DNA from: Emergencia timonensis
GTDB taxonomy: Bacteria; Bacillota; Clostridia; Peptostreptococcales; Anaerovoracaceae
DNA length: 64,000 bases
Assembly (NCBI RefSeq): GCF_900086585.1
Contig: NZ_FLKM01000008.1
Location: 1,437,652 to 1,501,651, forward strand
Direction: 5' to 3'
A program made the position numbers and the translations under genes. The notes beneath the pieces were generated by a model. It worked only from the letters and a program-made list of their open reading frames with translations. It was not told the origin of the DNA and did no database searches. Below, one piece after another: positions 9,391 through 49,009 of this stretch (its first letter is position 1; the number at the start of each line of letters is the position of its first letter).

Positions 9391-9581
9391 AAAATGTTAT
9401 AATAGTTTCACAATCTTACGACGTTGCCGTTTTGCCCCAAGCTTGCTTGGCTAGGCAAAACGGACAGCGGAGTGAGTGAAACGAGCGTAGGAGTATTGCG
9501 TAAGCAATACGTTGTCGCAAAGAAGAAACCATTGAATCATGAATTTCGATTGAATTTTTAAAGGAATATTCATGATATAAT
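9391..9581. repeat. Structured intergenic repeat, family 1, interrupted copy
   Basis: A copy of the repeat family also found at 32431-32793 and 46283-46380. It starts with ATGTTATAAT, then stem 1 (GTTTC at 9405-9409 with GAAAC at 9525-9529) enclosing the conserved core CTTACGACGTTG, then ATTGAA, then stem 2 (CATGAAT at 9538-9544 with ATTCATG at 9568-9574) and a TATAAT at 9576-9581. The loop of stem 1 is split by an 88-bp palindromic insert. The final TATAAT may act as the -10 box of the DUF1805 gene, as no better candidate precedes it. Confidence 0.75.
9427..9514. mobile_element. 88-bp palindromic insertion with ACGTTG flanks
   Basis: The sequence ACGTTG occurs at 9421-9426 and again at 9509-9514, and the segment between interrupts the otherwise conserved repeat core. 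Inside are CCGTTTTGCC (9427-9436) paired with GGCAAAACGG (9454-9463) around a nested CCAAGC/GCTTGG, and GTATTGC paired with GCAATAC near the right end. The pattern resembles a non-coding miniature element that duplicated 4-6 bp of target. No terminal repeats of a known insertion sequence were recognised. Confidence 0.5.
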
Positions 9582-9965: not shown

Positions 9966-9990
9966 AATAGGAAATATCGATTTCCTATTA

Positions 9991-10108
9991 AAAAAAAGGG
10001 TGTGCAGAGGGGAATCCCCTCGCCGCCCTCAGGAGGGTGCTCAGCCTGAGTAGCAGGCGCCGAAGGGAACCTAGGGTTCCCTAGCGGAGTGGTGCAGCCA
10101 CTTTTTTT
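9991..10108. repeat. Multi-hairpin intergenic repeat, family 2, copy A
   Basis: A 118-bp element nearly identical to 11650-11767. It contains five successive hairpins: GAGGGG/CCCCTC, CCCT/AGGG, GCCTG/CAGGC, GGGAACC/GGTTCCC and AGTGG/CCACT, the last followed by seven T, so one end can act as a terminator. An A-rich left end can pair with the T-rich right end to close the whole element. No reading frame is conserved between the copies. Confidence 0.75.
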
Positions 10109-11608: not shown

Positions 11609-11649
11609 CATTCATAGAAAATTGCGTTTTTATAATTTCTTATAAATTG

Positions 11650-11767
11650 AAAAGTGGTTTATGCAGAGGGGAATCCCCTGGCCGCCCTAAGGAGGGTGCT
11701 CAGCCTGCAAAGCAGGCACCGAAGGGAACCCTAGGTTCCCTAGCGGAGTGGCGTCAGCCACTTTTTT
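11650..11767. repeat. Multi-hairpin intergenic repeat, family 2, copy B
   Basis: Second copy of the 118-bp element at 9991-10108, with the same five hairpins. AAAAGTGG at the left end (11650-11657) pairs with CCACTTTT at the right end, closing the element. Differences between the copies fall mostly in loops (agtag versus caaag) or shift a stem boundary (GGGAACC-ta-GGGTTCCC versus GGGAACCCTAGGTTCCC). Confidence 0.75.
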
Positions 11768-23431: not shown

Positions 23432-23596
23432 CCTAGGTGCGAAAGGCAAGTGAACATGAAATCCCTGGGTCTTTCGCACCTGTATTCTTGTAAGTTTAAT
23501 TCCATATGTGGAAATATATGTTACATATGGTTTGTCCAAATCTAAAAGTAATACAAATTAATGGGAATTTCTTTAGGAGATTGGCGTTAATTTGCA
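23432..23596 (+). promoter_or_regulatory. CRISPR leader with an 11-bp inverted repeat
   Basis: An AT-rich region between cas2 and the first repeat. AGGTGCGAAAG at 23435-23445 is exactly repeated in inverse as CTTTCGCACCT at 23471-23481, a motif seen in leaders of I-C systems that could anchor integration or terminate the cas mRNA. The stretch just before the array (TTTAGGAGATTGGCG) is the expected integration-proximal end. Confidence 0.7.
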
Positions 23597-25736
23597 GTCG
23601 CACTCCGCATGGAGTGCGTGGATTGAAATCAGATTCCAAAAGCGAGACTTTTATCAAAAGTCATGGTCGCACTCCGCATGGAGTGCGTGGATTGAAATTC
23701 CCAATTACTGGAAACTACCCTAAAAGGTGTAGTAGTCGCACTCCGCATGGAGTGCGTGGATTGAAATACCAAAACTGATTAGGACAATTAGACAAAGTAT
23801 GTCGCACTCCGCATGGAGTGCGTGGATTGAAATCAATATTTTTTGACCTGCCCATAACCATACATCTAGTCGCACTCCGCATGGAGTGCGTGGATTGAAA
23901 TTGAGTTTAAATCGTCGCTCATTGCAATCATTGATGTCGCACTCCGCATGGAGTGCGTGGATTGAAATAAAAACCCACTTAAAAAACTCATTAAATGTGT
24001 CTTGTCGCACTCCGCATGGAGTGCGTGGATTGAAATATAATTTCCCTCCTTTTAGGCTCCTGCCCTTACTACGTCGCACTCCGCATGGAGTGCGTGGATT
24101 GAAATATGAAGCTGATGGGGCTTGGCACTTTGACATTGACGTCGCACTCCGCATGGAGTGCGTGGATTGAAATAGCGTTGCCATCGTATGAGAAGAAGGA
24201 GGTAAAAGTGTCGCACTCCGCATGGAGTGCGTGGATTGAAATCATGATTTTACCAAACCGCAACCCAATCCGATATGGTCGCACTCCGCATGGAGTGCGT
24301 GGATTGAAATGACCTCATTTTCAATCTTTAACAGGTATTTAATCGTCGCACTCCGCATGGAGTGCGTGGATTGAAATCATTGATGGTTTATCAAAAGAAA
24401 CGGCTGCAAGTGGTCGCACTCCGCATGGAGTGCGTGGATTGAAATTTTGGTGCCCAGACGGTAGCCGCCAACTTTTGAGTCGCACTCCGCATGGAGTGCG
24501 TGGATTGAAATTTAAGCAGCATGGACTCTATGTTGTCTACCTTTACCTGGGTCGCACTCCGCATGGAGTGCGTGGATTGAAATCATTTCTTCCAGCAATT
24601 GTTCGATTTGTGCCTCATAGTCGCACTCCGCATGGAGTGCGTGGATTGAAATTACGGCTAATGCTCCCGCCTTTTTTACACGCTGGTCGCACTCCGCATG
24701 GAGTGCGTGGATTGAAATATTTCTGAGGAAGAAAAAGTGGAATTTACAATGCACGTCGCACTCCGCATGGAGTGCGTGGATTGAAATATTTAAATCGTTA
24801 AAATATCCTGCATCAAACTTATGTCGCACTCCGCATGGAGTGCGTGGATTGAAATACGTCTATTCTTTAGCATATCATCAACGAGAGGGTCGCACTCCGC
24901 ATGGAGTGCGTGGATTGAAATACCTGCTTATACAGATATTGGACATATCCGCAGACTAGTCGCACTCCGCATGGAGTGCGTGGATTGAAATAGTGCCAGC
25001 CCGCTCATGTCTCCGTAGTAGATGGGTCGCACTCCGCATGGAGTGCGTGGATTGAAATGTTGTAGTATGTAACGCCTCCATTATCGTGGATCATTGTCGC
25101 ACTCCGCATGGAGTGCGTGGATTGAAATCGCTCCAACTGTGCGTGCCTGCCAGCTTCCTGCATGTCGCACTCCGCATGGAGTGCGTGGATTGAAATCTCC
25201 ATAGTCCAGCTTCAGCGGAATTCTCCCTTGGTCGCACTCCGCATGGAGTGCGTGGATTGAAATGGTATTAAAATTGGTAAGTTCAAGAACTGAGGCTTTG
25301 TCGCACTCCGCATGGAGTGCGTGGATTGAAATCTAATCTGTGACAATGCACTTAGACCTATATATGTCGCACTCCGCATGGAGTGCGTGGATTGAAATCC
25401 AACCGTCCATTAATACAGATGGGGCACCTCCCCTGTCGCACTCCGCATGGAGTGCGTGGATTGAAATCCGAAGCATCTGAAAATGAATCTTGGGAACTCG
25501 TAGGTCGCACTCCGCATGGAGTGCATGGATTGAAATCCACTACGGAAATAGGCTGGCTTGAAAAGCTGTGGGGTCGCACTCCGCATGGAGTGCGTGGATT
25601 GAAATGTTTCCGTAGTTAAAGGCTTACTTGCAGTATTCGCTGGAGTCGCACTCCGCATGGAGTGCGTGGATTAAAATTTTTGTATAGCAATATTTAAACG
25701 GTACGATTGTGTGTCGCACTCCGCTTGGATTGAAAT
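23597..25736 (+). CRISPR. Type I-C CRISPR array, 31 full repeats plus 1 truncated
   Basis: Thirty-one 33-bp repeats, the first at 23597-23629 and the last full one at 25645-25677, are separated by unique spacers of about 33-39 bp. Each repeat is GTC, the 7-bp stem GCACTCC with GGAGTGC around GCAT, then GTGGATTGAAAT. A final repeat at 25713-25736 lacks 9 bp of the stem region. Two repeats near the far end have one change each: G to A in the handle start (25504-25536) and G to A giving GATTAAAAT (25645-25677). Identical repeats near cas2 and decaying ones at the far end show that new spacers enter at the cas2 side. Confidence 0.98.
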
Positions 25737-32367: not shown

Positions 32368-32430
32368 CAGAATGAGGGGATATGCATTTCACAATAATTT
32401 ATTTGCATAATATGGCTTTCTTGATTATAA

Positions 32431-32793
32431 TGAACGCATCGATCATACGGCTTTGCCGCAAGGAAGCGTTCATTGAAACATGTGCTTAGATGTTATGTTC
32501 AAAGGAATGCACATGTTATAATAGTTCCACGATCTTACGACGTTGTCGAGCGGTAGGAACTATTGAATCATGAATTTCAATTCTATTCTCAAAGGAAGAT
32601 TCATGTTATAATAAACGCATCGATCTTACGACGTCGTCGCAAGGAAGCGTTCATTGAAACATGTGCTTCGATGCTATGTTCAAAGGAATGCACATGTTAT
32701 AATAGTTCCACGATCTTACGACGTTGTCGAGCGGTAGGAACTATTGAAACATGAATTTCAATTATAAATTTAAAGGAAGATTCATGTTATAAT
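32431..32793. repeat. Structured intergenic repeat, family 1, two 181-bp tandem copies
   Basis: Two direct copies of a 181-bp unit, each made of two related half-units. Each half-unit has stem 1 around a conserved core (GATCTTACGACGTTGTCG in three of four), then CATTGAA or TATTGAA, then stem 2 ending in an AAAGGAA box, then TTATAAT. Stem 1 is AACGC/GCGTT (first and third) or ATAGTTCC/GGAACTAT (second and fourth). Stem 2 is ACATGTGC/GCACATGT or CATGAAT/ATTCATG. Stem partners change together, so the fold is conserved rather than the sequence. The last TATAAT (32788-32793) stands 33 bp before the lipoprotein start and may be its -10 box. Confidence 0.85.
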
Positions 32794-32826: not shown

Positions 32827-33639
32827 ATGAGAAAAAAGTTTATCGCATTAGTATTGATTGTCGTCTTTATGTTTACCGTGACAGGTTGTGGCTCGATCAG
32901 AACGGTAGAAGGACCGGATCTGAAGAAACCGGTCTTTGTCAAGGAACTCATTTACACTGACGAGATGAATGTGGATTTGTCCTATATACAAGACTACAAC
33001 TGGGACAAAGAAATTTCCAAGGTTTCCATTGTCGACGGACCAAAGGGAGTGACCTGCAAGGTCTATGACAACGAGGAGTATCAGGAGGACGAGAAATACA
33101 CCCTGATAACAGTCCATCTGGGCATAAACAGCAACCGGACTGATGACGAGGGAAATTTGCCAGAGGATATTGCCTTCAACAAGGTAAATATCACTTGGGA
33201 CGATGGAAGCGAAAGCATTGAGGACGTGGGGTCGATTGTCATATCCTCAGATGATTTTGATTCCGATATGGTCGATGAAAGCGGCGGCAGCGAAATGGGC
33301 GAGAGTTATATCAGTTTAGAACCGGCAGAAAGAGATGTAAAGATTACAGGCTTGAAATTTAGGGTAAAGGATGCCGAGCAATATTTTACAGATATTACTT
33401 TCAACGAAACGCCGCTAAAAGAAATCAGCATTAGACGTCCTTTGGAGTTATATGAAGGGGAATCGACAGATATCTCCGTAAATACTGGCAGCAATATGGA
33501 CTATGGAAATATTTCGGTGGCGGCAGACGTCATGGAAAAGACAGAAAAGGGAGAGAAAGTCTACACTACCATTTTCCTGGGTTGGAACTTATGGAGTGAC
33601 GGAACGATCAGAGCGTACTTAAAGTCGGTATTAGATTAG
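32827..33639 (+). CDS. Hypothetical lipoprotein
   Basis: A 270-residue exported protein. The N-terminus is a lipoprotein signal: KK, a hydrophobic stretch, then the lipobox TVTGC with the cysteine at residue 21. The mature part is acidic, rich in D and E, with beta-strand-like alternation and an end GWNLWSDGTIRAYLK. I do not recognise a family. GGGGAGAGGG precedes the ATG. It has its own terminator and lies between the structured repeat cluster and the AbgT unit. Confidence 0.75.
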   Translation: MRKKFIALVLIVVFMFTVTGCGSIRTVEGPDLKKPVFVKELIYTDEMNVDLSYIQDYNWDKEISKVSIVDGPKGVTCKVYDNEEYQEDEKYTLITVHLGINSNRTDDEGNLPEDIAFNKVNITWDDGSESIEDVGSIVISSDDFDSDMVDESGGSEMGESYISLEPAERDVKITGLKFRVKDAEQYFTDITFNETPLKEISIRRPLELYEGESTDISVNTGSNMDYGNISVAADVMEKTEKGEKVYTTIFLGWNLWSDGTIRAYLKSVLD

Positions 33640-42601: not shown

Positions 42602-42607
42602 GAAATT

Positions 42608-42730
42608 GGCGGAGATAAAAACACATCCCGGTAGGTAGTCCGGGAGCAGCTATTGGGGTATATAATCCAAAAGCTGTCAGTAACCTTCCTTCCAGGTCGT
42701 CCATTCTCACTTGCGCCACTTAAGGGAGGA
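42608..42730 (+). ncRNA. Structured leader RNA, probable yjdF riboswitch
   Basis: The leader holds stems CCCGG (42627-42631) with CCGGG (42640-42644), and CAGCT (42647-42651) with AGCTG (42672-42676) enclosing TTGG/CCAA, and ends at the ribosome site GGGAGGA. Leaders of yjdF genes commonly carry the yjdF-motif riboswitch, which binds azaaromatic compounds and controls translation. Identity rests on position and fold, not on a covariance-model match. Confidence 0.6.
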
Positions 42731-46278: not shown

Positions 46279-46282
46279 TATA

Positions 46283-46382
46283 CTATACCATGTGCATTCC
46301 TTTGGAAATAAAATCGAAGCACATGATTCAATGAACGCTTCCTTGCAGCAAAGCTGTTTGGTTGATGCGTTCATTATACCAC
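46283..46382 (-). repeat. Structured intergenic repeat, family 1, single minus-strand half-unit
   Basis: On the minus strand: TATAATGAACGC, a loop with CAGC-TTT-GCTG, GCGTTCATTGAA, then CATGTGC and GCACATG around the CAAAGGAA box, ending GGTATAG. Compared with the cluster at 32431, the loop stem CGAC/GTCG is replaced by CAGC/GCTG and pairing is kept. Confidence 0.8.
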
Positions 46383-48711: not shown

Positions 48712-48791
48712 GGTAATTACCTCCAAAAGGATGTTTCTTATTTAATTTTACCATAACTGCTGACATTATGCTTGAAGAATTTAGGGTTCAG

Positions 48792-49009
48792 GCGGCGTGA
48801 GCACCCGAGCAGTTAAGCAACAAGCCGCGTACCGGCGAGTTTGGCGTAACGAAACAGAAGAAAACAGCCGAAACTGCGTAACGGGGCGGCATGATAACCC
48901 GGGCAGTTAAGCAACAAGCCGCGTACCGGCGAGTTTGGCGTAACGAAACAGAAGAAAACAGCCGAAACTGCGTAACGGAGCGGCATGATAACCCGGGCAG
49001 TTAAGCAGG
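48792..49009. repeat. 94-bp tandem repeat, about 2.3 copies
   Basis: A unit beginning GCGGC at 48792 recurs at 48886 and 48980, an exact 94-bp period. Copies 1 and 2 differ mainly in the first 16 bases (GTGAGCACCCGAG versus ATGATAACCCGGG). It contains AAGCCGCG, GGCGAGTTTGGCG and AAACTGCGTAACGG. No open frame spans it. It lies between the divergent rnz and GDSL genes. Confidence 0.92.

Follow-up and report, generated by a model that had tools for sequence, protein, structure and literature searches.

At least 147 units of a two-hairpin repeat of about 90 nt, arranged in 72 arrays, were found with a covariance model in the genome of Emergencia timonensis. The two sides of the stems change together, and most arrays begin with a TATAAT box and precede an open reading frame. 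In the reading that we prefer, and to which we give about an even chance, this is an old non-autonomous structured repeat that enters promoters behind the −10 box, restores the −10 box and multiplies by tandem duplication, its structure being kept for a process at the DNA level. The observations on which this reading is built are the anatomy of the unit, covariation without a preference for G.U, position, presence and absence across species, tandem duplication and recurrence of the plan with other stems.

The repeat and its structure

The genome was searched over its 4,661,482 bases (nine contigs, 96.3% complete). The covariance model scored 150 of 1817 candidates, and the 147 units obtained are a lower bound. 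A unit consists of TATAAT, stem 1 with an inner hairpin, the box ATTGAAWC, stem 2 and TGnTATAAT, i.e. full units mostly close with an extended −10 box, and adjacent units have one TATAAT in common. The stems proposed in the earlier note do pair, but their lengths had to be corrected. Stem 1 is really 9 bp long, the AAT of TATAAT pairing into the ATT of ATTGAA, and stem 2 has 7–9 bp and runs from A(A/T)C to the G(T/G/A)T directly 5' of ATAAT. Only GA and AT are left unpaired between the helices.

In the window, by which we mean the whole stretch of 64,000 nt that was analysed, four units with stem types alternating A-B-A-B occupy 32426-32793, and single units are present at two other places (Table 1). 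The single type A unit faces the apparent terminator of a neighbouring gene and no gene start. An open reading frame starts 38 nt 3' of the long-loop unit, of which the covariance model alone covers just 9488-9581.

Table 1. Repeat units in the window and the open reading frame behind the four-unit array
Feature	Position	Strand	Description
Unit 1, type A	32426..32522	+	stem 1 AATGAACGC/GCGTTCATT, stem 2 AACATGTGC/GCACATGTT
Unit 2, type B	32517..32612	+	stem 1 AATAGTTCC/GGAACTATT, stem 2 CATGAAT/ATTCATG
Unit 3, type A	32607..32703	+	near copy of unit 1
Unit 4, type B	32698..32793	+	near copy of unit 2; 3' end TGTTATAAT
ORF 3' of the four-unit array	32827..33639	+	270 aa; 33 nt past the array; lipoprotein-like start by eye
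Single unit, type A	46282..46378	−	3' box decayed to TATAGT
Single unit, long-loop variant	9398..9581	+	stem 1 GTTTC/GAAAC; about 88 extra nt in the inner hairpin

The insert of the long-loop variant (about 80-90 nt) is itself structured and lies inside the inner hairpin of stem 1 (..GGACAGCG..GAGCGTAGGA.., window 9425-9515). The same variant occurs at loci L031, L043, L052, L059, L135, L141 and L157, and sequence related to the insert was found outside units too (L040, L153).

Covariation was measured over 22 pairs in 45 non-redundant units of the E. timonensis genome; 74 distinct units found by pattern had been reduced to 47 below a string-similarity ratio of 0.9, and two odd ones were dropped. 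The statement of the earlier note that both sides of the stems change together is borne out: standard pairs make up 96.6% of 990 cells as compared to 78.0% after shuffling (sd 0.8), 195 cells are altered on both sides as compared to 60.2, and the covariation score is 0.540 as compared to 0.200. None of 500 shuffles, which take no account of the relatedness of the units, reached the observed pairing, double-change or covariation values. One of the five whole-structure measures, the number of further pair types, was not above the shuffles (35 vs 36.6). When the structure was slid, pairing fell to only 24-46%. Across all pairs of columns, mutual information peaks inside the stems, with the pairs of the structure first and mixed columns of the same stem after them; no further covarying pair that would indicate extra pairing or a pseudoknot stood out in this analysis. 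Since the stems covary, the structure is selected or otherwise kept. The structure had been chosen on those same units, and therefore an independent check blind to the stems was needed (see below).

Copies with uncompensated stem changes, which the earlier note regarded as speaking against a selected structure, do exist but are rare. Among the 127 units in which both arms of stem 1 could be placed (20 of the 147 were dropped), the arms agree at five or six of six positions in 118, at four in four and at three or fewer in five. Three of these five poorest units are the last unit of their array.

Position of the arrays at promoters

An exact TATAAT opens 63 of the 72 arrays and is missing from the start of nine. 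In 45 of these 63 arrays the first TATAAT is preceded by the TG of an extended −10 box. TTGACA-like −35 sequences are enriched only at a spacer of 15-19, where the mean best match is 3.62 of 6 as compared to 2.98 in shuffled sequences (sd 0.10, 0 of 500 reaching the observed value); at other distances the match is 2.7-3.1 and not enriched. The proposal that the TATAAT boxes are promoter candidates is supported, and also extended, by the TG and by the −35 enrichment. Judged from sequence, the first TATAAT of an array would usually be the host gene's own −10 box, and the first TATAAT of unit 1 (32426-32431) is likely the −10 box of the gene downstream.

Starts of open reading frames were called by a simple rule combining the frame and a Shine-Dalgarno sequence. 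By this rule a start on the same strand follows within 100 nt downstream in 44 of the 72 arrays and within 200 nt in 53; on the divergent side the corresponding numbers are 10 and 22. In this one gut bacterium, then, about fifty promoters probably carry the repeat, beginning at their −10 box. Three arrays lie inside long open reading frames by the same rule, and some, including the unit at 46282-46378, lead no gene. The genes behind the arrays are a mixed set. Several of them look housekeeping-like by their N-termini, from which we take them to be pyrH, murA, the pyruvate kinase gene, mutS, ligA and murC, so that several of the affected promoters would serve housekeeping genes. The start of murC is 425 nt from its array.

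DNA-level or RNA-level structure

Mispairs were counted in an alignment of 103 non-overlapping matches from the E. timonensis genome (102 distinct rows) fitted to the covariance model. With one boundary pair left out, its 2069 pair cells consist of 1910 Watson-Crick pairs, 49 G.T, 46 A.C and 64 others. In helices of RNA, G.U is as a rule much more frequent than A.C. As G.T is no commoner than A.C here, the preference that marks an RNA-level structure is not found, and the stems look kept at the DNA level and not as RNA. The reading of the repeat as an RNA, one of two offered in the earlier note, is not favoured by this rarity of G.T, nor by Rfam, of which no family reached the threshold within the repeats.

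The exception is the boundary pair, formed by the W of ATTGAAWC and the base 5' of TATAAT, which is mostly T.G in the E. timonensis genome. More specifically, 76 of the 138 distinct units of this genome that fit the exact pattern have T-G in 57 cases, A-T in 13, T-T in four and T-A in two. In 38 units from eight other genomes the pair is A-T (28), T-A (9) or A-A (1), so it still covaries across genomes. A third set of 39 units, from congeners and genome_contigs loci, gave T-G 25, A-A 9, A-T 3, T-A 1 and A-G 1. The nine A-A and the one A-G run against pairing; the A-A cases are taken as termite-gut units, where the rule halts at an inner TATAAT. A strand-specific T.G would also fit a structure formed on the + strand only, RNA included.

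This bears on the possibility that the arrays are structured 5' leaders, i.e. that a chain of hairpins produced by read-through tunes mRNA stability or translation and that the covariation reflects selection on RNA. Covarying units in arrays that mostly precede an open reading frame in the same orientation would suit such leaders, and so would a boundary pair that is a wobble on the + strand; yet outside that pair the wobble is missing. A transcript begun at the box would, moreover, lack the 5' arm of stem 1, since this arm spans about −9 to −1, and the genes downstream are a mixed and partly housekeeping-like set. The Rfam search gave leaders a further lead. At the gathering threshold Rfam 15 has three hits in the window, none inside the repeats. 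At relaxed thresholds there were chance-like hits and a weak match to the dfrA-dnaX RNA (RF02952), the best one, with 27.7 bits as compared to a gathering score of 48.6; the opposite strand scores 23.1. The RF02952 consensus ends with a hairpin and UAUAAU, and its loop stretch AUcAAAAaGgAau resembles TTTCAAAGGAAT of stem 2, but the RF02952 model is without stem 1. Given this weak match, the stem-2 half may have a distant relative that is already listed as an RNA. A search of 291 genomes for RF02952 matched nothing, and neither did its control, so that it carries no weight. Taken together, we consider it unlikely that the arrays serve as leaders.

Among other Rfam matches in the window, Clostridiales-2 RNA (RF02937) scores above gathering at 9990-10070 and 11649-11729, and a yjdF (azaaromatic) riboswitch (RF01764) lies at 42605-42720.

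Occurrence in other genomes

The covariance-model search of genome and relatives, a check proposed in the earlier note, gave beyond the at least 147 units of E. timonensis itself matches in 5 of 12 congeners and, among 24 further members of the family, in two, one of which matched weakly (E 9.6e-4); 24 genomes of the order gave none. The stem-blind check used the pattern TATAAT, gap, ATTGAAWC, gap, TATAAT, with the reversed pattern as control, and covered 197 genomes at the level of the family and 391 at that of the class. Both this survey of relatives and the stem-blind one used stricter filters or samples. Matches as compared to the reversed control were 87/0 in E. timonensis, 41/0 in G158, 11/0 in G067, 10/0 in G164, 7/0 in G131 and 6/0 in G589; further ones were 12/0 in G086, 4/0 in G515, 5/1 in G313, 7/1 in G364 (same family as E. 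timonensis) and three in G537, where the control was empty. The genomes with several matches and an empty control belong to unrelated groups. The pattern matches 86 of the 391 class genomes. Most single matches look like chance: many genomes are also hit by the reversed pattern, and stem 1 is lacking in more than half of the matches listed.

Complementarity of the stem-1 arms at five or more of six positions was found in 70 of the 174 matches listed outside E. timonensis, namely in 45 of 124 in one set (3.6% with shuffled arms) and in 25 of 50 in the remainder. The distribution among the listed matches has two humps, units and chance matches. The units read in families f19, f29, f59 and f83 and in G364 have the same plan with different stems and loops. 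In 14 of 20 loci from these groups a start codon follows downstream in the stretch shown, by eye; four show none and two are at a contig end. That several families of Clostridia combine this plan with stems unrelated to one another suggests a shared process that works on structure. A termite-gut MAG (WRKL) holds a further subfamily, with a period of 98 nt and AACCTCACCCG.. units in tandem (L100, L108, L109, L114, L127). No stretch of viral_contigs matched the one CATG-type pattern used, which other stem types would escape.

Two side observations concern subfamilies. AACCTCAC.. units like those of the termite-gut subfamily adjoin ordinary units in G004, G007 and G011, and at L067 (G032, same family) palindromes containing TATAAT/ATTATA follow a unit and are perhaps a further subfamily.

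Filled and empty sites were compared within the genus, between species and not between strains. At pyrH, 5 of 13 genus genomes (E. timonensis, G004, G006, G007, G011) have units directly after TATGnTATAAT. In the other eight the corresponding box, which reads TATGnTATAAT in seven of them, is not followed by a unit. The sequence just upstream of the box in the empty G002 is common to the filled G004, G007 and G011. GATTCC-type and AACCTCAC-type units are both present in G007 and G011, in reversed order, and these two stem-1 types in opposite order suggest repeated entry at one pyrH box. As regards a target duplication, TATAAT stands on both sides of a unit and once at the empty pyrH sites, and one copy may belong to the element's own end.

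The murC locus was readable in 8 of the 13 genomes. Full units are present in E. timonensis and G007, a variant in G002 and only the 5' half in G011 and perhaps G006; no clear unit was found in G004, G005 and G009. The murC promoter sequence is common to E. timonensis, G002, G004, G007 and G011, and what looks like an empty site in G004 may represent a half unit that has decayed. The pyk gene was found in 9 of 13 genomes, with six units in E. timonensis and none within 480 nt in the eight others. This is not a clean empty site, because the surroundings of the gene differ in those eight.

These sites also speak to the idea that the units are a promoter device of the host: tandem extended −10 promoters, the transcription of which is tuned by hairpins, either in a cruciform or in the single-stranded non-template strand of the open complex, and which spread by ordinary recombination. 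That full units mostly end in an extended −10 box fits with it. The pyrH promoter has units in five genomes of the genus but goes without them in eight, and pyk does without them in eight congeners, though with different surroundings; in four congeners pyk was not matched. Extrusion of a cruciform is costly with loops of 20-30 nt. We find a device of this kind doubtful.

Growth and age of the arrays

Thirty arrays consist of one unit, 21 of two, 12 of three, seven of four, one of five and one of six. For units of at least 94 nt, mean identity is 84.6% within arrays (106 pairs) as compared to 73.0% between arrays (8805 pairs). Within arrays, identity at lag 2 (88.9%) exceeds that at lag 1 (83.7%), which indicates that A-B dimers were duplicated. 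Many arrays are terminated by a 5' half unit that by eye resembles the locus's own units. The dispersal in the E. timonensis genome looks old and there is no sign of recent movement, because no units are identical between arrays (maximum 95.9%). In G158, identity between units at different loci reaches 99.0% (13 units at five loci), which argues for recent dispersal in that genome.

Could such palindromes be neutral, produced by template switching (quasipalindrome correction) together with unequal recombination in arrays and with no selection for structure? The strand-symmetric mispairs would fit, as would the higher identity within arrays and the dimer duplication seen at lag 2, but neither the position after −10 boxes nor the constant ATTGAAWC box is explained this way, and the same architecture with unrelated stems across several families is not either. 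We give this explanation a small chance.

Search for a transposase

The earlier note suggested mobilisation by a TnpA_REP-like transposase. For E. timonensis this is not supported: Y1_Tnp (PF01797) has no match in its genome, although that is the genome with most units found. There is none either in G131 (79% complete), G537 (83%) and G515 (99%). Altogether some Y1 match was present in 7 of the 11 genomes with units that were searched, in part only as fragments. A strong match is present in 4 of 5 congeners with units (G004, G006, G007, G011) and in 2 of 7 without (G001, G012), numbers too few to weigh. As for other congeners, the matches are weak or partial in G005 and G008, and G009, which has units, has none. 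By eye, the Y1 loci of G001, G006, G007 and G012 (four of the six strong loci) look like ordinary IS200 copies with no unit-like ends. With no match in the E. timonensis genome, Y1 was rejected as a candidate there and probably does not move the repeat in this species at present. A role elsewhere or formerly is possible.

Discussion

If the repeat is one that inserts into promoters, it would enter at TATAAT, and probably does so as a single strand of DNA that is folded. The TATAAT left behind the unit after entry would let the host gene keep its promoter, because the unit ends in its own extended −10 box. The central ATTGAAWC would act in a guide-like way, in that its ATT could pair with the AAT of the left box and its A(A/T)C with the G(T/A/G)T at the right box. 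Unit orientation would be set by the target, so that arrays mostly point at genes. Recombination between units would afterwards lengthen and shorten the arrays, and any benefit to the host (several start sites, tuning) may be secondary. Structure without fixed sequence, strand-symmetric and present in several families, suggests that it is the fold in DNA that is recognised.

Against a mobile repeat it must be said that no mover enzyme was found, that Y1 is absent from the E. timonensis genome and that some arrays lead no gene. Terminal half units are not explained by simple insertion at TATAAT and are explained by tandem duplication. Half units and the lack of identical units better fit tandem duplication and age, and therefore we hold mobility at about one half. 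A wider proposal is more tentative and in our opinion possible rather than probable: the repeats would be a widespread class of single-stranded DNA elements in Clostridia that enter the −10 box, perhaps in the transcription bubble, with ATTGAAWC as guide to both TATAAT boxes and with stems fixed in shape only, and that are moved by some recombinase.

The closest known kinds that the repeat resembles are REPINs, BOX elements and mobile promoters, and we assign it to none of them. In REPIN/REP systems a short sequence next to hairpins serves as target. The repeat is alike in that stems 1 and 2 abut a fixed TATAAT at both ends. It differs from the REPIN/REP-RAYT (IS200/IS605-like) arrangement in having two different tandem hairpins instead of two inverted REPs and in its position at the −10 box, and the genome with most units has no Y1 gene. 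Its ends are unlike those of a MITE with terminal inverted repeats: by eye, the 5' arm of stem 1 and the 3' arm of stem 2 are not inverted copies of each other. Putative mobile promoters bring a promoter to unrelated genes, and so do the units; here, however, they start at the host −10 box and give back an equal box, and their stems covary. For recognition of a fold in DNA, REPINs offer a comparison (PMC8049555). Integron attC sites are recognised by structure more than by sequence and are recombined as one folded strand (PMC2727003). Compared by description only, the units would be alike in principle, but no cassettes are seen at them.

BOX elements of the pneumococcus are described, in the part of the source at hand, as modular with middle modules variable in number and predicted to form RNA stem-loops, and Correia elements as carrying promoters (PMC3049150). 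BOX elements, compared by this partial description only, are like the repeat in being modular structured repeats of a Firmicute; they differ in having terminal inverted repeats and target duplications, and no −10 target is mentioned in that part (PMC3049150). The literature matches listed, judged by title and start of abstract, include no description of the repeat; this scope takes in neither papers behind a subscription nor the survey of RNAs that Weinberg and others published in 2017. A class of small DNA elements that insert into promoters may have gone unnoticed here. They raise a tractable question, namely what puts DNA precisely into a −10 box without gene silencing.

Other repeats in the window

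A 94-nt stretch at 48791-48978 is tandemly duplicated with 96% identity. A CRISPR array of about 30 repeats of GTCGCACTCCGCATGGAGTGCGTGGATTGAAAT lies at 23567-25606 and is, by its look, presumably type I-C-like.
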